Shown here in pieces: positions 13,222-22,088 of a stretch of 33,988 nt of DNA. Location of the stretch: assembly GCA_020444075.1 (NCBI GenBank), contig JAHLLR010000054.1:1-33988 (forward strand), in the 5' to 3' direction. The DNA comes from Deltaproteobacteria bacterium (lineage in GTDB: Bacteria; Desulfobacterota; Desulfobacteria; Desulfobacterales; Desulfosarcinaceae). How positions within the stretch are numbered: the stretch's first letter is position 1; each line of letters begins with the position of its first letter. Position numbers and translations under genes: made by a program. The notes under the pieces were generated by a model, which saw only the letters and a program-made list of their open reading frames with translations, made no database searches and was not told the origin of the DNA.

Positions 13222-13707
13222 ATGAAGGGAAAGCTTATTGGGGTGGTGGGAATTCTGTTTCTGTTATTCGGTCTGGCATCTACCGTTTGGTCAGGAACCA
13301 GGGATGAATGCATTTCAAAATGCAAGGATGCCGCGGAATTTTTGAAATCCAATGGTGTCGCAGCCGCCGTTAAGGAATTTTCAGGTCAAAAAAACCGCTT
13401 CGTCTGGAATAACGGCATCAGCTATGTTTTCCTTATGGATATGAACTGCAAGGTGCTTGCCCATCCTTTCAATCCGGAGTTGACGAAAATGAATTCGTTG
13501 ATAGACCTGAAGGATGTGAACGGCAAAGCATTTTTCGTGGATTTTATCAGTGCCGCGAAAAAGGGCAAAGGCTGGACCAAATATCATTGGACCGTTCCGG
13601 GCAAGGACGTCATCAAACCCAAGCACACCTTCATTTTCCGTGTGCCGGATACTGATTATTTTGTGGGTGCCGGGTTTTATGTCCTGGCTCCGGGCGAATT
13701 TTATTAA
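13222..13707 (+). CDS. Secreted single-Cache domain protein
   Basis: A 161-aa periplasmic or lipid-free secreted protein. A signal peptide covers residues about 1-24. The rest is one Cache_2-type ligand-binding domain, with SYVFLMDMNCKVLAHPFNPEL in the beta-sheet core, GKAFFVDFISAAKKGKGWTKYHW and the final strand YFVGAGFY. No transmembrane or signalling module follows, so it may be a free binding protein that presents a small organic acid to a receptor. Two cysteines (CISKC) follow the signal peptide. The start at 13222 has a near-perfect AAAGGAGG. It is preceded by the structured RNA at 13011-13093. Confidence 0.8.
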   Translation: MKGKLIGVVGILFLLFGLASTVWSGTRDECISKCKDAAEFLKSNGVAAAVKEFSGQKNRFVWNNGISYVFLMDMNCKVLAHPFNPELTKMNSLIDLKDVNGKAFFVDFISAAKKGKGWTKYHWTVPGKDVIKPKHTFIFRVPDTDYFVGAGFYVLAPGEFY

Positions 13708-14281: not shown

Positions 14282-15814
14282 ATGAACAAAGAAAAAACAG
14301 AAAAAAATCCCATCCGGCATCCCATCCGGTTCAAAATATTTTTGGTGAGCCTTGTGCCGACCATGGCTTTGTTGGCAGCCGCACTTATAAACAACCAATA
14401 TTTAGACGACTTAGGTTACAGCGCCGAACAAATCCTTTCCAAAAACTACAAAAGCATTCGTGCCGCCCAAGAAGCCCGAAAAACGCTCGAAGAGATACGC
14501 AATCCGTTGCTTGGGAAAGTTTACCAGAGCCAGAGTGGAGTCATTGTTTCTCGAGAAAAGCTGATAAAATTGTCCACCAATCTGAACGTTTGCCGGGAAA
14601 ACATAACTGAACCCGGTGAGGGTGAATTGATCGACCGCTTATTCCAAAGTTACGCCAAGTATGAACCGCTTGTAAATTCTCTCAAGACAAACCCCGACAG
14701 CTTATGGCCAAGAGATCGATTTGCTGATTTTCTTGCACTGACAGCCGAAATGGTTTTCCTCATTGACGACCTGGTAACAATCAATGAAACCGCCATGGAG
14801 CATGCTGAGCAGGAGACCCGCTCCTTGGCAAGCCAGGCGCAACGGAACGCTGCCGTGCTGTTTGGGATTATCATTACCGGCATATTGGTTTTGAGCTACT
14901 TTTTTTCCTATCGCATCGCCAAACCAATCATGACGCTTGCCGGTCAGCTATTAAATACCCAGGAGGGAAGCGGAGTATATCCTGCCGTTCAATCACGAAC
15001 CAACGATGAGATCGGGTATTTAACCCAATCCTTCAACCGACTGTTTAACCGTCTGAAACAATACGATCAGCATCGAGATGAGATCATCGCCAACGAAAGG
15101 GAAAAAGTTCGTCGCAGCGAGGAAGCCAAAGGTCGGTTCATTGCCGACATTTCCCATCAGCTCAAAACGCCAATGACATCACTGTCCATGAGTATAGGAA
15201 TGCTTAACAACCGCGGTGATGATTTCGGGCCTGAAAAAAGGGCCACGCTCATCACCACCGCACATGATGATTGCACCCGCCTGACAGCATTAATCAATGA
15301 GCTTGTGGATCTGTCCCGGCTTGAAGCCATGTCAAGACCGCGACCTAAGGAGACACTCGATATTGCCATTGTACTTCAAGAATGCCTGACGCCACTGATG
15401 AAACAGGCAGAAGGCAGGGGCATTGCGATTGATATCGACATCCCCGAAAATTTGCCCAAAGTTACCATCGATTCTTTCCGTTTTCCCTGGGTCATTACCA
15501 ATCTGGTCGGAAATTCCCTGCGTTATACAGACCGTGGCGGACGAATCGGTCTCAAGGTATACAGGCAGGGAACCCGGTTCTTTTTTCAATGCATGGATAC
15601 GGGCAGCGGCATCAACCCCCAATTTTTGCCGCATATCTTTGACCGCTTCACTCAATTCTCCGATCGAGGCAAGGGCGGCACGATCGGGCTCGGCCTGGCC
15701 ATCGTCAAGGATATCATTGAGCAACATGGCGGAGACATCGAGGTCGAAAGCACGGTCGGAAAGGGTACGTGCTTTACCTTCTGGATTCCCGACGAAAATG
15801 GAGGCCGAGCGTGA
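14282..15814 (+). CDS. HAMP-domain sensor histidine kinase (KinB-like)
   Basis: A 510-aa inner-membrane histidine kinase. A first transmembrane helix lies at about 20-37, a periplasmic helical domain at about 40-180, and a second helix at about 183-207. A HAMP linker (RIAKPIMTLAGQL) and the dimerisation domain follow, with the phosphorylated His at 292 in ISHQLKTP. The ATPase domain has VGNSLRYTD (N box), DTGSGI, RFTQF and GLGLAIVKD (G boxes). All catalytic parts are intact. Its GTGA overlap with the sigma-54 activator gene shows that the two form a cognate pair. The layout resembles Pseudomonas KinB with AlgB. The start at 14282 has a poor SD. The signal is unknown; the downstream genes suggest an osmotic or potassium cue. 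Confidence 0.9.
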   Translation: MNKEKTEKNPIRHPIRFKIFLVSLVPTMALLAAALINNQYLDDLGYSAEQILSKNYKSIRAAQEARKTLEEIRNPLLGKVYQSQSGVIVSREKLIKLSTNLNVCRENITEPGEGELIDRLFQSYAKYEPLVNSLKTNPDSLWPRDRFADFLALTAEMVFLIDDLVTINETAMEHAEQETRSLASQAQRNAAVLFGIIITGILVLSYFFSYRIAKPIMTLAGQLLNTQEGSGVYPAVQSRTNDEIGYLTQSFNRLFNRLKQYDQHRDEIIANEREKVRRSEEAKGRFIADISHQLKTPMTSLSMSIGMLNNRGDDFGPEKRATLITTAHDDCTRLTALINELVDLSRLEAMSRPRPKETLDIAIVLQECLTPLMKQAEGRGIAIDIDIPENLPKVTIDSFRFPWVITNLVGNSLRYTDRGGRIGLKVYRQGTRFFFQCMDTGSGINPQFLPHIFDRFTQFSDRGKGGTIGLGLAIVKDIIEQHGGDIEVESTVGKGTCFTFWIPDENGGRA

Positions 15815-17136
15815 AAAAAGCGCTGATCATTGACGATGATAAGAACATTTTGACCACACTGGAAATGTACCTCGAAGATAAAGGCTTCGACGTCCTCAAG
15901 GCAACCTCCGGTGAGGATGGCCTCCGGCATCTCCGCAACGTTTCGCCTGAACTGGTGCTGCTTGACATGAAACTGCCGGATCGCAATGGCCTGGATGTAC
16001 TGAAGGAGATTATGGCCAGTGGTATTAAAACCCAGGTCCTGATGATTACCGCCTACGCCACCATCGAGACGGCGGTCAGCGCAGTAAAAATGGGCGCTTT
16101 TGACTACCTCCCCAAACCATTTGTTCCCGGCCAACTCGATCTGGTGCTGGAAAGGCTGAAACGCTTCCATCACATGGAGATCGAGATCGCCACCCTTAAA
16201 GGTATTTTTTCCGAAGGAGGCATTCTGACCCGAAACCGCAGAATGCGAAAGATCCTGAAAACAGCACGCCAGGCAGCCGATTCGGAAGCAATTGTTTTAA
16301 TCAGCGGCGAAAGCGGCACCGGCAAAGGGCTGCTGGCACACTTAATCCATGATTGGAGTCCGAGAACAGGCAAACCATTTGTTACCGTCGACTGCGCCGC
16401 ACTCCAGGAAAGCCTCTTGGAAAGTGACTTGTTTGGCCACATCAAGGGTGCCTTCACCGGCGCTCTTCGTGATAAGGAAGGCAAACTCAAGTTGGCTGAA
16501 GGTGGTACTGTTTTCGTAGATGAGGTTTCTGAGATCCCGGTGACCGTGCAGGGTAAAATGCTTCGATTCATTCAACACCGCGAATATGAGCGTGTGGGAG
16601 ATCCTAAACCGTATACCGTGGATGTCCGCATTATCGCCGCCACGAACAAGGACCTGGAGGAGATGGTCCGTAATGGATCTTTTAGAGAGGATCTCTATTT
16701 CAGATTAAACGTCCTGGAGATCTTCTTGCCGCCTTTGAGAGAAAGGCCTGAAGATGTCACGCTGCTGGCCGATCATTATCTGAAACAATCCGCCCGCTTG
16801 AACGAAAAAGCGGTTCAACATATTTCAAGCGATGCAATGCAGCGGCTTCAGAACTATACCTGGCCAGGTAATATCCGGGAACTGATCAACGCCATTGAAC
16901 GGTCTGTTATCATAACACAGGATTCAGAGCTGAAGGCAAGCGATCTTCCCCCCCACATTGCAAATTTCAACCCTTCGGCTTCAGCCGCGACTGCTTTGAA
17001 AAGCCTGGTCGAAATTGAGAAAATGCATATACAAAACGTAATATCGCATTCCCCTTCGCTTGAAGAGGCTGCGAAGGTCCTGGAAATCGACCCGGCCACA
17101 TTATGGCGCAAGCGTAAAAAATATCAGTTGGATTGA
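15811..17136 (+). CDS. Sigma-54-dependent response regulator (NtrC/AlgB-like)
   Basis: A 441-aa cytosolic transcription activator. The receiver domain covers residues 1-120, with acidic pocket DDD near 8-10 and phospho-acceptor D52 in LLDMKLP. The AAA+ domain carries Walker A GESGTGKG (166-173), the sigma-54 contact loop GAFTGA (213-218), and Walker B in GGTVFVDE. The C-terminal Fis-type helix-turn-helix ends LWRKRKKYQL, very like AlgB. It starts at GTG 15811, overlapping the kinase stop. It must act with sigma-54 RNA polymerase; a -24/-12 promoter lies 115 bases beyond its stop codon, ahead of the potassium-transport genes, so that promoter is its likely target. Confidence 0.92.
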   Translation: MKKALIIDDDKNILTTLEMYLEDKGFDVLKATSGEDGLRHLRNVSPELVLLDMKLPDRNGLDVLKEIMASGIKTQVLMITAYATIETAVSAVKMGAFDYLPKPFVPGQLDLVLERLKRFHHMEIEIATLKGIFSEGGILTRNRRMRKILKTARQAADSEAIVLISGESGTGKGLLAHLIHDWSPRTGKPFVTVDCAALQESLLESDLFGHIKGAFTGALRDKEGKLKLAEGGTVFVDEVSEIPVTVQGKMLRFIQHREYERVGDPKPYTVDVRIIAATNKDLEEMVRNGSFREDLYFRLNVLEIFLPPLRERPEDVTLLADHYLKQSARLNEKAVQHISSDAMQRLQNYTWPGNIRELINAIERSVIITQDSELKASDLPPHIANFNPSASAATALKSLVEIEKMHIQNVISHSPSLEEAAKVLEIDPATLWRKRKKYQLD

Positions 17137-17137
17137 A

Positions 17138-17175
17138 CTTGCAGTTTGCAAGGTCAATTTCTTGCAGAATTCAAG
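17138..17175. promoter_or_regulatory. Candidate upstream activator binding sites
   Basis: CTTGCA-GTT-TGCAAG (17138-17152) is a perfect inverted repeat, and CTTGCA-GAA-TTCAAG (17161-17175) is a near copy 23 bases downstream, about two helical turns. They lie about 75-115 bases upstream of the sigma-54 promoter, the usual distance for an enhancer-binding protein. They start directly after the activator stop codon. Confidence 0.5.
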
Positions 17176-17250
17176 ATTCTTGGCCAATTCCACCTCAACA
17201 AACTTCCCTCCGGCAACTATTCTAATATCATAATAGATAGTTAAAAAATC

Positions 17251-17266
17251 AGGCACCCATATTGCT
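17251..17266 (+). promoter_or_regulatory. Sigma-54 (-24/-12) promoter
   Basis: AGGCACCCATATTGCT matches the consensus TGGCAC-N5-TTGCW at all but the first base, with exactly 10 bases between the invariant GG and GC. Transcription would start near 17277, about 55 bases before the gene at 17332. Confidence 0.75.
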
Positions 17267-17274
17267 CTTCAGGT

Positions 17275-17308
17275 GTGCAACACCACCCCCGTAAACGGGG
17301 GATTGCAC
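17275..17308 (+). other. 5-prime leader hairpin at the predicted transcript start
   Basis: GTGCAA (17275-17280) pairs with TTGCAC (17303-17308), enclosing a CCCCCG / CGGGGG stem (17286-17291 with 17296-17301) and a four-base loop. No T tract follows, so this is not a terminator. It begins almost at the predicted start site and may stabilise the mRNA or control access to the SD at about 17321. Confidence 0.45.
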
Positions 17309-17331
17309 GAAAAGAAAGACTTGGAGGTCTG

Positions 17332-17910
17332 ATGTTCCTTTCATCAATAGATGCACCGATACTGGTTTGCCAGCTTCATCGCAACCTGGAGATTGCCAAG
17401 ACCGGGGATGTGACAATAACCCCTGATTTGTTGACCAGTTTAAGTGAGGCAACGAGCAGGCATTTCAGTTTGATCATCATCGGTTTGACTACAAAGAGGA
17501 TCTCTCTCCGAAACGATATTATTGAACTGTGCCGATGTTTAAATACCCATCCGTTAACGAAAAACACCTCGGTTCTTGTTTTAGTTGAGCTTTCGCATCG
17601 GAACATGGCTGTAAGGTTGGCAGATGCCGGAGTGAGGTTCGTGAAAGTGGTCCATCCCGGAGAACCGATTGATCCTGAATACTTGTTGCGTCTTGTTCAT
17701 TTGGATGACCCATCGGTTAATATCAATCGAATCTTGGCCAGGCTATGCCCTTTTATTCATTACCGCCCGATTGACGATCAATGTGAATTGACCACCTGCA
17801 AAGCTTATAGAAACCGGATGGTTCTTGGAGGAAGCCGCCTGCATGACGTCTGTGAAACAGATACCCATGTACACTGTAAATATTTTATCAAACCGAGAGT
17901 TGATTCATGA
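17332..17910 (+). CDS. Uncharacterised receiver-like protein with Cys-rich C-terminus
   Basis: A 192-aa soluble protein. Residues about 1-125 have an alternating strand/helix pattern like a response-regulator receiver, but the phospho-acceptor Asp is absent (SLIIIGLTT at the expected strand end), so it would be a pseudo-receiver. The C-terminal part has five cysteines (139, 151, 156, 174 and 182) around CKAYRNRMVLGG, CETDTH and HCKYF. I recall this ending from unannotated Desulfobacterota proteins; it could bind zinc or an Fe-S cluster. The start at 17332 follows GGAGG. Its last codons overlap the TrkH gene as ATGA, which ties it to potassium transport. A regulatory or redox-sensing role is an inference. 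Confidence 0.65.
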   Translation: MFLSSIDAPILVCQLHRNLEIAKTGDVTITPDLLTSLSEATSRHFSLIIIGLTTKRISLRNDIIELCRCLNTHPLTKNTSVLVLVELSHRNMAVRLADAGVRFVKVVHPGEPIDPEYLLRLVHLDDPSVNINRILARLCPFIHYRPIDDQCELTTCKAYRNRMVLGGSRLHDVCETDTHVHCKYFIKPRVDS

Positions 17911-19277
17911 CGGTTAGCGGTCGAATCCTAAAAATGCATCCGGCATCCCTCGTTTTGGTCAGCTTCCTTTTGGCCATTTTTATGGGGACAATTCTGCTGC
18001 GGATGCCGATTTCTACAAAAATCGGCTATATTACATGGGTCAATGCCATGTTTACATCAACTTCCGCCGTGTGTGTCACCGGGTTGATCGTCGTTGACAC
18101 CGGCAGTTATTTCACCGTTTTCGGTCAATGTGTCATCCTTGCACTGATCCAGATCGGTGGATTGGGTCTGATGACCATTTCCGTGACACTCTTTCAGTGG
18201 ATAGGCAGAAGCATATCCATTCGTCATCGGATGGCCATGCAGGATCTGTTTGCACATACTCCTCGGGCGGATATCTTCAGCCTGGTCAAGAGTATCGTCC
18301 TGTTGACCTTTGGAGCAGAGTTCATTGGCGGTCTATTTCTGACCCTTCACTGGAGCCGCGAACTGCCTCTTTCTCAAGCCGCCTACACGGGCTTTTTTCA
18401 TTCGGTTTCGGCTTTCTGCAACGCCGGTTTTGCCCTGTATTCTGACAGTATGGTGCGTTACGGCGACAATTTTTTGTTTAATGCCGCTATATGCGGTTTG
18501 ATTGTTGTCGGTGGCATCGGCTTTCCAGTGCTCTACGACCTGCAATGCTGGGGTAGATTTCGCAAACGTCAACGATGCAGGTTGTCGATTCAAACCAAGA
18601 CTGTATTGTTGACAACCGTGATTCTGATTATTTCAGGAGCATTCATGTTCGCTGTTTTGGAACAGCTTCCGCTGAGAGAAGGTCAATCACTCTCGCATCG
18701 CATCATGACGCCGATATTCCAGTCCATTACATGTCGTACCGCAGGTTTTAATACGGTTGACATCGCTTCATTGAAAAGCGCCACGCTGGCTATGATGATT
18801 TTTCTCATGTTTTTCGGTGCATCCCCCGGTTCTTGCGGGGGCGGTGTAAAAACCACAACCCTGGCGTTGCTGGCGGCTTTTACCATGACCCGGTTACGGC
18901 GACGGCGGCGGGTTAACCTATTTAAGAAAAGCATCCCCAGCGAGACGGTTACCCGCAGTGTATCGCTGGTACTCGTTTCCATCGGCCTCATTTGCCTGGT
19001 CTTGTTTATGATCCTTGCAGGCAACGCCGTTGATGATCGTCTGGTCAATGATACGCAGGGGACTTTTCTTAAGTTTTTGTTCGAAACGGTATCCGCTTTC
19101 GGAACCGTCGGGTTGTCTATGGGAGTCACACCGGAGTTGAGCCTGTGGGGCAAATGCTGGATCATTGTGATGATGATAATCGGACGGGTAGGGGTACTCA
19201 CCTTCTCATATATTGTTGTCGGCAACGTTGCAGAAAATGGCATCGAGCATTCTGAAGAGAATTTGATGATCGGATAA
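17907..19277 (+). CDS. TrkH/KtrB-family potassium uptake channel subunit
   Basis: A 456-aa inner-membrane protein that forms the potassium-conducting pore. It has the four membrane-pore-membrane repeats of the family, and each selectivity-filter glycine can be seen: AVCVTGL (near residue 50), AFCNAGF (near 170), CRTAGF (near 280) and AFGTVGL (near 400). The gating-loop region with FFGASPGSCGGGVKTTT, typical of KtrB/TrkH, is intact. It overlaps the previous gene by ATGA and is followed 10 bases later by its cytosolic gating partner. The length (about 450) fits KtrB more than the longer TrkH of enterobacteria. It is probably under the sigma-54 promoter at 17251. Confidence 0.92.
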   Translation: MTVSGRILKMHPASLVLVSFLLAIFMGTILLRMPISTKIGYITWVNAMFTSTSAVCVTGLIVVDTGSYFTVFGQCVILALIQIGGLGLMTISVTLFQWIGRSISIRHRMAMQDLFAHTPRADIFSLVKSIVLLTFGAEFIGGLFLTLHWSRELPLSQAAYTGFFHSVSAFCNAGFALYSDSMVRYGDNFLFNAAICGLIVVGGIGFPVLYDLQCWGRFRKRQRCRLSIQTKTVLLTTVILIISGAFMFAVLEQLPLREGQSLSHRIMTPIFQSITCRTAGFNTVDIASLKSATLAMMIFLMFFGASPGSCGGGVKTTTLALLAAFTMTRLRRRRRVNLFKKSIPSETVTRSVSLVLVSIGLICLVLFMILAGNAVDDRLVNDTQGTFLKFLFETVSAFGTVGLSMGVTPELSLWGKCWIIVMMIIGRVGVLTFSYIVVGNVAENGIEHSEENLMIG

Positions 19278-19287
19278 AAGGCGGTTA

Positions 19288-19947
19288 ATGATGAAGCGAT
19301 TTGCAGTGATAGGATTGGGCAATTTTGGATTTCATGCAGCCAAAGCCTTATATGAAGATGGTAACGAGGTATTGGCAATTGACTCTGACAAAGGACGAGT
19401 ACAGGCCATCGATGCCCATTGCACGGAAGCGATTGTTCTCGACGCAACGGATAAAGATAGTTTAAAAGCTCTTGGACTGGAAAATCTGAATGGAGTCATT
19501 GTATCTACGGGCACCAAAATCAGCATCAGTATCCTGATTTGTCTGTATTTGCAGGAGATCGGAATCAAGAAAATCCTGGTAAAGGCACTTGACGAGGACC
19601 ATGCAAAAATTCTGAAACGCGTAGGAGCCACCGAGATCATTCATCCTGAACGTGACATGGCGGTACGTATTTCCAGAGGCTTATCAAGGCCAAATATCCT
19701 GGACTTCATCCCCTTATCGGAAGATTTCGATCTCGTTCAGGTTGGACCGCCCAGAGAGTTCATTGGAAAGAACCTCAAAGACCTGAATCTGAGAGCCAAG
19801 TATAATGTGCACGTTATTGCCATTAAAGAACTCGTTCCGGAAAATTTTGTTTTAGTGCCACCTGCGAGTTTTGTTATAAAGGACAGCGATATACTGATCA
19901 TGTTGGGAAAATCAGAGGATATTAGAGGGATAAAGGCATTGAAATAA
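19288..19947 (+). CDS. TrkA/KtrA-family potassium channel regulatory subunit
   Basis: A 219-aa cytosolic RCK protein that forms a ring on the TrkH/KtrB pore and gates it in response to nucleotide. RCK_N (about 1-135) has the Rossmann motif VIGLGNFG and the acidic strand end AIDSD. RCK_C (about 140-219) contains VQVGPPREFIGKNLKDLNL and ends DSDILIMLGK. One RCK unit of this length is KtrA-type; the enterobacterial TrkA is a duplication. Two adjacent ATGs (19288 and 19291) are possible, with AAAGGCGG upstream. It is the last gene of the unit. Confidence 0.92.
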   Translation: MMKRFAVIGLGNFGFHAAKALYEDGNEVLAIDSDKGRVQAIDAHCTEAIVLDATDKDSLKALGLENLNGVIVSTGTKISISILICLYLQEIGIKKILVKALDEDHAKILKRVGATEIIHPERDMAVRISRGLSRPNILDFIPLSEDFDLVQVGPPREFIGKNLKDLNLRAKYNVHVIAIKELVPENFVLVPPASFVIKDSDILIMLGKSEDIRGIKALK

Positions 19948-20064: not shown

Positions 20065-20140
20065 TGGTGCCGAGGGACAGAATCGAACTGCCGACACGGG
20101 GATTTTCAGTCCCCTGCTCTACCGACTGAGCTACCTCGGC
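20065..20140 (-). tRNA. tRNA-Phe (GAA)
   Basis: The 76-base reverse strand folds as a cloverleaf. The acceptor GCCGAGG pairs with CCTCGGC, followed by A and an encoded CCA. The D arm has AGCTCAGTCGGTAGAGC, the anticodon loop is CTGAAAA with anticodon GAA between GGGGA-type arms, and the T arm has GTTCGATTC. The gene stands alone between its promoter and terminator. Confidence 0.97.
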
Positions 20141-20294: not shown

Positions 20295-22088
20295 CTAAAA
20301 CCGGTAGATCAGCGGTGTAAGAAAGATCGTCAGGGCAGCCACGATGAGGGTCATAACCGTCCCGATTTTGACGAAGTCGGTGAATTTGTACTCGCCCGGT
20401 CCCCAGACCATGAGGTTGGTCTGATAGCCGGTAGGAGTGATGAAGGCGCAGGAAGCAGATACCATCAGGGTGATGGCGAAGGGCATGAAACTCACGCCCA
20501 GTTGTCCCGCGGTGGAAAGGGCGATGGGGAACATGAATGCTGCCGCCGCGTTGTTGGTAATCACGTTGGTCATGAACGAGCAGCCGACAAAAATTACAGC
20601 CAGCGCCAGGTGCGGATTGTCGCCGCCCATGGCGGCGAGCAGACCGGCAATCCGCTCTGCCAGTCCGCTGCGGGTGACCGCTGACTCCAGGCCGATGGCG
20701 CAGGCAATCACCACCAGGGTCCCCCAGTCGATGCTGCGCGCGGCCGTGCGCAGGTTCAGGCAGCCGGTCAAAAGCATGGCCCCGCTGGCCAGCAAGCTGG
20801 CATTGAGCATGCTCATCCAGCCCATGGCCACCACACCGATCATTGTCAGAGTGATCAAACTGGCCTCCACCGCCCGATCCGTTCGCTGGAGGTGAAAGCC
20901 TTCCAACGCCTTGGTCAGTGCAAAGTCGTGGTCGATCTGGCAGGCATAGAAAAAGTCGTCGTTGACTTCCAGGACCGCATTGTCGCCGGCTTCGATGGTG
21001 ACTTCTTCAAGAGGTCCTGCAAGGGGTTGCCCGTCCCGGGAAAGGGCCACAAACTTGTACTGGCAGGCGTTGACATCCCGGGGGAGGTCGGGGATCTTTT
21101 TGCCCACCGCCGTGCTTTGCCGGGAGACCACGGCTTTTACCAGATGATGGGTGTGCCGCTCGGTTTCCATGGGGTTCAGCGTGAGATGCGGCACCAGTGC
21201 GTTGGTCCGCCACAGCTCGGTCATGGCGTGGACATCGGCAGAAAACGATAACAGATCGCCCGCTTCCAGCCGCTCGTGCATCAGGTCATTGGTCAGAATC
21301 GTGTCCGCCCGTCGAATGTAGAGCACTTCAAGGTTATCGCCGCTGGCAATCCCCAGGTCCTCCAGGGTTCGATCGACGATCCGCGACCCTTCACGGACCT
21401 CGAATTCCGCCGTGTAGCGCCGCATGACGGCGTCGACCGCCTTGTCTTCTTCTTGGTCGGCAAGAAAAAAGCGCCCCACCAGGATCATGAAGGCGATGCC
21501 GGTGACGGCAATGGGCATTCCCACCAGGGCCGGGTCGAACATCTTCAGCGCGCGGATATCCGGCAGGGCGGGATCGCCTTTGGCGATGGCATCAATAACC
21601 AGGCCGGCAATGACCAGGTTGGTGGACGTGCCGATGATCGTGCACATGCCGCCCAGGATCGAGGCAAAGCTCAAGGGGAGATACAACTGTTTTGCGGGCA
21701 GCCGGCTGGCGCGGGAAAGGTCCCGGATCACCGGGATCATCATGGCTACCAAAGGGGTGTTGTTGAGAAATGCGCTCCCCAAGGCGATGGGGGGCAGAAT
21801 TTTGACCTGGGCACCGGCAATGGATTTGGGCAGGCCGATGAGCTTGTCCATGATCATGGTGATGGCACCGGTGGCGTACATGCCGGCCGCGACCATGAAC
21901 AGGACGGCTACGGTGAGCATGCCCTGGTTGCTGAATCCCTTCAACAGTTCATGGGCAGGGGCCAGCTTCAGGGTCAAGGCGATGGTCAACGCCCCGACAA
22001 AGACTGCCGGTGCCGGGATCTTCGTTTTAACCAAAAGGACGAACAGCACCAGCAGCAGGGCAAGTGTCAGGTAGGCGGCAATCGTCAT
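20295..22088 (-). CDS. SLC13/DASS-type permease with central TrkA-C domains
   Basis: A 597-aa inner-membrane transporter. The N-terminal half has about five to six helices, including the motif SAFLNNTPLVAMMIPV, and the C-terminal half repeats it with SFMTNVITNNAAAAFMFPI. Between them, at about 215-395, lie two soluble RCK_C-like domains, with the first near REGSRIVDRTLEDLGI and the second near VVSRQSTAVGKKIPDLP. This layout is that of sodium-coupled sulfate or dicarboxylate permeases (the SAC1/CitT type). The anion cannot be told from the sequence. In a sulfate reducer, sulfate uptake would be natural, but that is a guess. It is separated from leuD by 185 bases without a recognisable feature and may have its own promoter. 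Confidence 0.85.
   Translation of the reverse strand: MTIAAYLTLALLLVLFVLLVKTKIPAPAVFVGALTIALTLKLAPAHELLKGFSNQGMLTVAVLFMVAAGMYATGAITMIMDKLIGLPKSIAGAQVKILPPIALGSAFLNNTPLVAMMIPVIRDLSRASRLPAKQLYLPLSFASILGGMCTIIGTSTNLVIAGLVIDAIAKGDPALPDIRALKMFDPALVGMPIAVTGIAFMILVGRFFLADQEEDKAVDAVMRRYTAEFEVREGSRIVDRTLEDLGIASGDNLEVLYIRRADTILTNDLMHERLEAGDLLSFSADVHAMTELWRTNALVPHLTLNPMETERHTHHLVKAVVSRQSTAVGKKIPDLPRDVNACQYKFVALSRDGQPLAGPLEEVTIEAGDNAVLEVNDDFFYACQIDHDFALTKALEGFHLQRTDRAVEASLITLTMIGVVAMGWMSMLNASLLASGAMLLTGCLNLRTAARSIDWGTLVVIACAIGLESAVTRSGLAERIAGLLAAMGGDNPHLALAVIFVGCSFMTNVITNNAAAAFMFPIALSTAGQLGVSFMPFAITLMVSASCAFITPTGYQTNLMVWGPGEYKFTDFVKIGTVMTLIVAALTIFLTPLIYRF

Follow-up and report, generated by a model that had tools for sequence, protein, structure and literature searches.

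Tandem palindromes and a sigma-54 promoter suggest a dedicated two-component switch for Ktr potassium uptake in a Desulfosarcinaceae bacterium

Organization of the locus

A 33,988-nucleotide stretch of contig JAHLLR010000054.1 of a deltaproteobacterium from the family Desulfosarcinaceae, hereafter the window (the whole analysed stretch, from the first letter of which locus coordinates are counted), encodes a membrane sensor histidine kinase (HK), a sigma-54 activator, a Cys-rich protein, and the potassium transporter subunits KtrB and KtrA. The kinase and the activator probably constitute a two-component sigma-54 switch dedicated to the Ktr potassium uptake operon, a reading of the sequence to which we assign a probability of about 0.82. 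A tandem palindrome, CTTGCAnnnTGCAAG, is positioned at 17138–17152 and 17161–17175, directly 3′ of the stop codon of the activator gene, and is followed by a sigma-54 promoter. The palindromes, which are absent from a first-pass annotation of the window, look like tandem binding sites for a dimer of a Fis-type activator at the usual enhancer distance. The annotation had proposed that the kinase and activator control the Ktr genes, and the tandem operator and sigma-54 site 3′ of the activator gene, both kept in relatives, lend support to this proposal. The locus has the following features.

14282–15814, + strand: membrane sensor histidine kinase (HK) with HisKA and HATPase_c domains, a weak HAMP match, and a predicted helical sensor part
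15811–17136, + strand: sigma-54 activator with Response_reg, Sigma54_activat, AAA_lid_14, and HTH_8 domains; the GTG start overlaps the HK stop
17138–17152, + strand: likely operator (upstream activating sequence, UAS) unit 1, CTTGCAGTTTGCAAG; perfect 6-3-6 palindrome, kept in relatives
17161–17175, + strand: likely operator (UAS) unit 2, CTTGCAGAATTCAAG; palindrome with one mismatch, its start 23 bp from that of unit 1
17251–17266, + strand: sigma-54 (−24/−12) promoter, AGGCACCCATATTGCT; lies 113 and 90 bp downstream of where operator units 1 and 2 begin
17332–17910, + strand: Cys-rich protein; receiver-like fold plus a C-terminal part with four invariant Cys
17907–19277, + strand: KtrB, potassium transporter subunit of the TrkH family; Pfam TrkH, best solved relative KtrB
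19288–19947, + strand: KtrA, cytoplasmic RCK subunit; TrkA_N and TrkA_C, best solved relative KtrA

The order HK–activator–promoter–Cys–TrkH/KtrB–KtrA and the coordinates reported in the first-pass annotation agree with the open reading frames, the domain matches, and the solved relatives of KtrB and KtrA. The HK and activator genes overlap by four bases, as do the Cys gene and ktrB, and ktrB is separated from ktrA by ten bases. A GGAGG motif stands 5′ of the Cys gene start at 17332. An alternative GTG start at 17275, given by the mechanical call of open reading frames, is located at or before the inferred transcription start at about 17277.

Two forms of the locus are found in relatives. The short form, to which the window belongs, consists of HK, activator, palindromes, promoter, Cys gene, KtrB, and KtrA. 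In the long form, genes for a second kinase with a PAS domain (HK2), a receiver-TPR protein, two TrkA-like proteins, and a second TrkH (TrkH2) are inserted between the promoter and the Cys gene. One long-form locus also contains a gene for a P-type cation-transporting ATPase (L018:10577–13327).

Conservation of the operator and promoter

The promoter sequence AGGCACCCATATTGCT has one mismatch to TGGCACN5TTGCW, which we take to be the sigma-54 consensus, and its GG and GC are intact. Its conservation was evaluated in 35 distinct regions 3′ of the activator gene, the window included, with the requirement that a site keep GG and GC and with the expectation derived from dinucleotide shuffles. Sites scoring at least 9/11 occur on the gene strand in 31 of the 35 regions, versus 1.32 expected, and on the reverse strand in none (0/35); at a score of at least 10/11 the count is 19/35 versus 0.16 expected. 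Four regions fall below 9/11: L025 and L058, which reach 8/11, and L027 and L093, which were scored on shortened regions in this count and carry sites of 10/11 and 9/11, respectively. The genome to which the window belongs encodes RpoN (one Sigma54_DBD match, E 4e-64).

The palindrome pair was searched for in DNA alone, allowing at most three mismatches, with the reversed pattern as a control. It is present in 21 of 389 genomes of the class, versus 1/389 for the control, and all 21 sites, which were inspected individually, belong to an HK–activator, HK2–Trk, or Cys–Ktr locus. A phylum-wide sample of 395 genomes, which partly overlaps with the 389, yielded the pair in the window and in three genomes that do not belong to the class (control 0). 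The three additional sites likewise belong to loci of this kind, although in one of them (L155) the contig ends past the promoter and the downstream gene is out of view. In the sampled genomes, the pair thus appears to be restricted to HK–activator or Trk/Ktr loci (24/24). Loci fetched by the palindrome are not independent evidence for it, whereas the 20 regions retrieved with the Cys protein, the window excluded, are. In each of the 20, one or more units with no more than 2/12 mismatches are present 3′ of the activator gene, and in 17 a unit has no more than one mismatch; 17/20 have a sigma-54 site that scores 9/11 or higher.

The distance from an operator unit to the −24 element has two main values. 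Among the 33 regions with both elements it is 111–114 bp in 20 and 98–100 bp in nine; the remaining four (L024, L025, L067, and L105) differ. In an alignment of the 20 regions with the longer spacing, which were picked by this spacing and 13 of which had been fetched by the palindrome, both operator units and the −24/−12 columns stand out, and the surrounding bases have mostly diverged. Weak conservation of A/T is also seen in the aligned regions about 31, 21, and 9 bases 5′ of the −24 element (17220–17243 in the window), at positions approximately one helical turn apart that are possibly a bend or an IHF site. A GC-rich leader hairpin at about 17277–17306, at the inferred start, is more stable than its shuffles (z −3.03); no common sequence or shape is apparent by eye in the leaders of 32 relatives, and the hairpin was dropped from the claim.

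Linkage of the kinase to potassium transporter genes

Linkage was evaluated by searching for the sensor part of HK in the 389 class genomes (E below 1e-30). The search gave 34 places, two of which (G349:C179 and C247) were counted as a single gene interrupted by a contig end, so that 33 orthologues remain. In 26 cases, HK2, Cys, or Trk/Ktr genes are on the same stretch as the orthologue, including that of G238, in which the palindromes and Cys–Ktr genes are about 10 kb from HK, and four orthologues extend to a contig end (G271, G382, G282, and G175). Synteny in relatives had been put forward as a test by the first-pass annotation, and the gene order is indeed kept where the genes are present, but the locus is patchily distributed and three of the 33 orthologues are exceptions.

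The Cys protein is encoded in 13 of 97 genomes, its own included, and a TrkH-family gene is adjacent in 13/13. A scan of genome contigs with the Cys protein gave 27 loci, several of them duplicating contigs of the earlier set, with a Trk/Ktr gene at the same locus in 26. The exception, L102, starts inside the Cys gene and has no Trk gene within the next 5.4 kb. Locus L092, which has the long form, is that of Desulfosarcina widdelii PP31.

Evidence against a dedicated switch and alternative explanations

Several observations weigh against a dedicated switch. The bare promoter motif occurs in the window at the level of chance, with 11 sites of at most two mismatches against a shuffle mean of 17.5, two of the 11 having one mismatch. 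The promoter was therefore judged by its conservation instead. The locus is patchy, as is evident from the frequencies of the Cys protein (13/97 relatives) and the palindrome pair (21/389); within the genus, the Cys protein is found in only one of 12 other genomes (G005). The conservation in part reflects shared ancestry. Three HK orthologues are not beside Trk/Ktr genes (G381, G143, and G349:C18), and in G143 a palindrome pair precedes an HK2–TrkH2 operon on a contig separate from that of HK. Finally, in nine of the 35 regions the same palindrome is preceded by another activator, EBP2, which has about 44% identity to that of the window, and sequence alone therefore leaves the identity of the binding activator unsettled. 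Eight of the nine EBP2 regions belong to the group with 98–100 bp spacing, and L105 is outside it.

It is unlikely that the HK–activator pair mainly controls other genes, for example those of an osmotic or envelope response, with the Ktr operon as one of several targets or a bystander. Activators of the NtrC class often have several targets, and single palindromes with one mismatch are present at four further places in the window genome (L074–L077). However, within 200 bp of each of the four no sigma-54 site with one mismatch or fewer was listed by the scan, and the sole tandem pair found in that genome, at the stringency used and in an assembly that is 95.75% complete, is the one at the Ktr locus. 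Because no other pair was found, and the four single palindromes are without a listed nearby sigma-54 site, the switch looks dedicated to one operon in the window genome, and the first-pass description of the regulon as self-contained holds for that genome. The location of the pair in all 24 pair-bearing genomes of the two samples also argues against control of mainly other genes. Another target is suggested by locus L150 (1286–7792; G349:C18), in which tandem palindromes and a sigma-54 site are followed by a Cys gene, a gene for a 596-residue protein of the AA_permease_2 family, and one for a 300-residue protein, and then by HK and activator genes, with no Trk gene within 9 kb of visible sequence. 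At L150, another transporter may be controlled by a switch of this kind. The permease, which has no match to a solved structure at E 0.1, is not called a potassium transporter here.

In a further alternative, the Ktr operon would owe most of its transcription to a housekeeping promoter or to read-through from the HK and activator genes, and the −24/−12 site would be a minor promoter. This alternative would be compatible with the 195-base gap between the activator and Cys genes and the position of all five genes on one strand, but is very improbable given that the sigma-54 site is kept in 31/35 regions while the flanking bases have mostly diverged.

If the kinase and activator form a dedicated switch of the Ktr operon, the membrane kinase would sense a signal, most likely low potassium or osmotic or ionic stress, which is the natural guess from the target, and would phosphorylate the activator. 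The activator would then bind the tandem palindromes at 17138–17175 and, through DNA looping, contact RNA polymerase with RpoN at 17251–17266. The transcript would begin near 17277 and carry the Cys protein, ktrB, and ktrA.

Kinase, activator, and Ktr proteins

The activator has the features of NtrC-type regulators: a receiver domain (LDMKLPDRNG), an AAA+ domain with GAFTGA at residue 213, and a Fis-type helix-turn-helix (HTH_8), and its best solved relatives are NtrC-family regulators. In HK, HisKA and HATPase_c are the only families found at E 0.001, with the H-box SHQLKTP at residue 291; HAMP gives only a weak match (E 0.0081). The sensor part is modelled as a long helical bundle with modest confidence (pLDDT 69.7). 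In a Foldseek search with this model NarQ ranks at the top, and the KinB sensor is a weak match (E 0.028, TM 0.70 by target length). The designation of the pair as KinB/AlgB-type in the first-pass annotation therefore stands as a weak resemblance of fold, and NarQ scores better. Immediately 5′ of the kinase gene, at 13222–13707, is a gene for a protein with a single Cache domain (dCache_2, sCache_2).

The products of 17907–19277 and 19288–19947 have Ktr uptake proteins B (E 5e-80) and A (E 1.6e-64), respectively, as their best solved relatives. The TrkH, TrkA_N, and TrkA_C domains of a Ktr system are present, and KtrB contains four pore-loop-like motifs, which presumably form the pore loops. 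The window genome contains three TrkH-family genes. A second KtrA–KtrB pair (L030:8757–15759) is near genes for a sulfate permease-family protein and a Lon protease with a receiver domain. On the minus strand 3′ of the Ktr operon are a tRNA-Phe gene (20065–20140) and a gene for a CitMHS/DASS-type transporter with a TrkA_C domain (20295–22088).

Discussions of potassium uptake usually centre on KdpDE and c-di-AMP. Both Kdp control and control by a c-di-AMP riboswitch were considered for the locus and set aside. KdpA has no match in the 95.75% complete window genome, and the same search is positive in 5 of 14 control genomes; the riboswitch RF00379 has no match in the window at the gathering score and none in the genome, with 2 of 14 control genomes positive.

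Cys-rich protein

The Cys protein has no Pfam match even at E 10 and no NCBIfam match at E 0.001, and Pfam searches across its family give scattered matches, each in one member. In its model (pLDDT 82.1), the N-terminal part resembles a receiver and matches PleD and CheY, and the C-terminal part is of lower confidence; a profile search of the PDB finds weak receiver matches only (best E 0.051). The residues Cys 139, 156, 174, and 182 are invariant in 25/25 sequences. By contrast, the phospho-acceptor Asp expected of a receiver is not conserved: Asp is found at position 51 in 1/25 sequences, at 52 and 53 in 0/25, and at 54 in 3/25, and the window protein has G-L-T-T at this place, as judged from the position of strand 3 in the model. 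The protein may have a metal or redox role. At L027:1081–1458 and L028:8799–9038 most of the receiver-like part is gone, and the Cys-rich end and the Ktr locus are kept; at L065 no Cys gene was found although the Ktr locus is present. Therefore, the Cys protein is not strictly required for the arrangement.

A more far-reaching proposal is offered tentatively, as possible but doubtful. The Cys protein could be a new accessory subunit of the potassium system, in which a pseudo-receiver is joined to a metal or redox centre of four cysteines; it would link the activity of KtrB, or the kinase, to the redox or metal state of the cell or to two-component signalling. The whole unit could be a hitherto undescribed regulon through which sulfate-reducing bacteria place potassium uptake under sigma-54, in the long form of which one kind of operator would drive two different Trk/Ktr systems.

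Ktr/Trk uptake seems to be under RpoN, with a sharply defined operator, in a mostly sulfate-reducing group, and the long form would place two systems under this control at once. Such an operator would make prediction of the regulon in the group straightforward and allow a clean test of the signal of the kinase. The Cys pseudo-receiver constitutes an unassigned family of proteins linked with potassium transporters.

Comparison with known systems

The KtrB and KtrA of the window match those of Bacillus subtilis and Vibrio, which we take to be the organisms of reference for KtrAB, over most of their length. The systems differ in control, with no c-di-AMP riboswitch found in the window genome. KinB and AlgB of Pseudomonas likewise combine a membrane kinase with a helical sensor and an NtrC-type response regulator; however, they have other targets (alginate), and the likeness to the window pair lies in the weak fold match of the KinB sensor.

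The first-pass annotation regarded the control of the locus as unusual, but sigma-54 control of potassium uptake has precedents. DVU3334 of Desulfovibrio vulgaris Hildenborough is reported to regulate the operon that it forms with kdpFABC (Rajeev et al. 2011, PMC3333781) and is listed among sigma-54-dependent regulators with the function of potassium uptake (Kazakov et al. 2015, PMC4641369). As in the window, a sigma-54-type response regulator of a sulfate reducer is encoded with potassium uptake genes. By contrast, the target of DVU3334 is Kdp, and the kinase there, divided over two frames, contains a K+ sensor domain and a UspA domain, whereas the target at the window locus would be KtrAB with the Cys protein, and the kinase has HisKA and HATPase_c alone at E 0.001. 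In Acidihalobacter and Halothiobacillus neapolitanus, genes for a kinase and a sigma-54 regulator are beside trkA–trkH; however, the pair is called ntrY and atoC/ntrX-like, with a predicted connection to nitrogen, and no operator, promoter, or Cys protein is described in the accessible part of the source (PMC9062700). In addition, kdp has been linked to sigma-54 via PTSNtr (PMC3162934), and KtrAB appears merely as background in PMC10562621.

No description of the operator or the Cys protein was met in the literature searched for sigma-54 or RpoN in connection with potassium, Trk, Ktr, or these bacteria, the coverage of which leaves out most subscription journals. The principle of sigma-54 control of potassium uptake is therefore known, and the operator, target, and set of proteins of the window locus are a variant that was not found described. 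What is new is the architecture of the operator, the long form with a second kinase and a second Trk system, and the pseudo-receiver protein with four invariant cysteines encoded beside KtrB.

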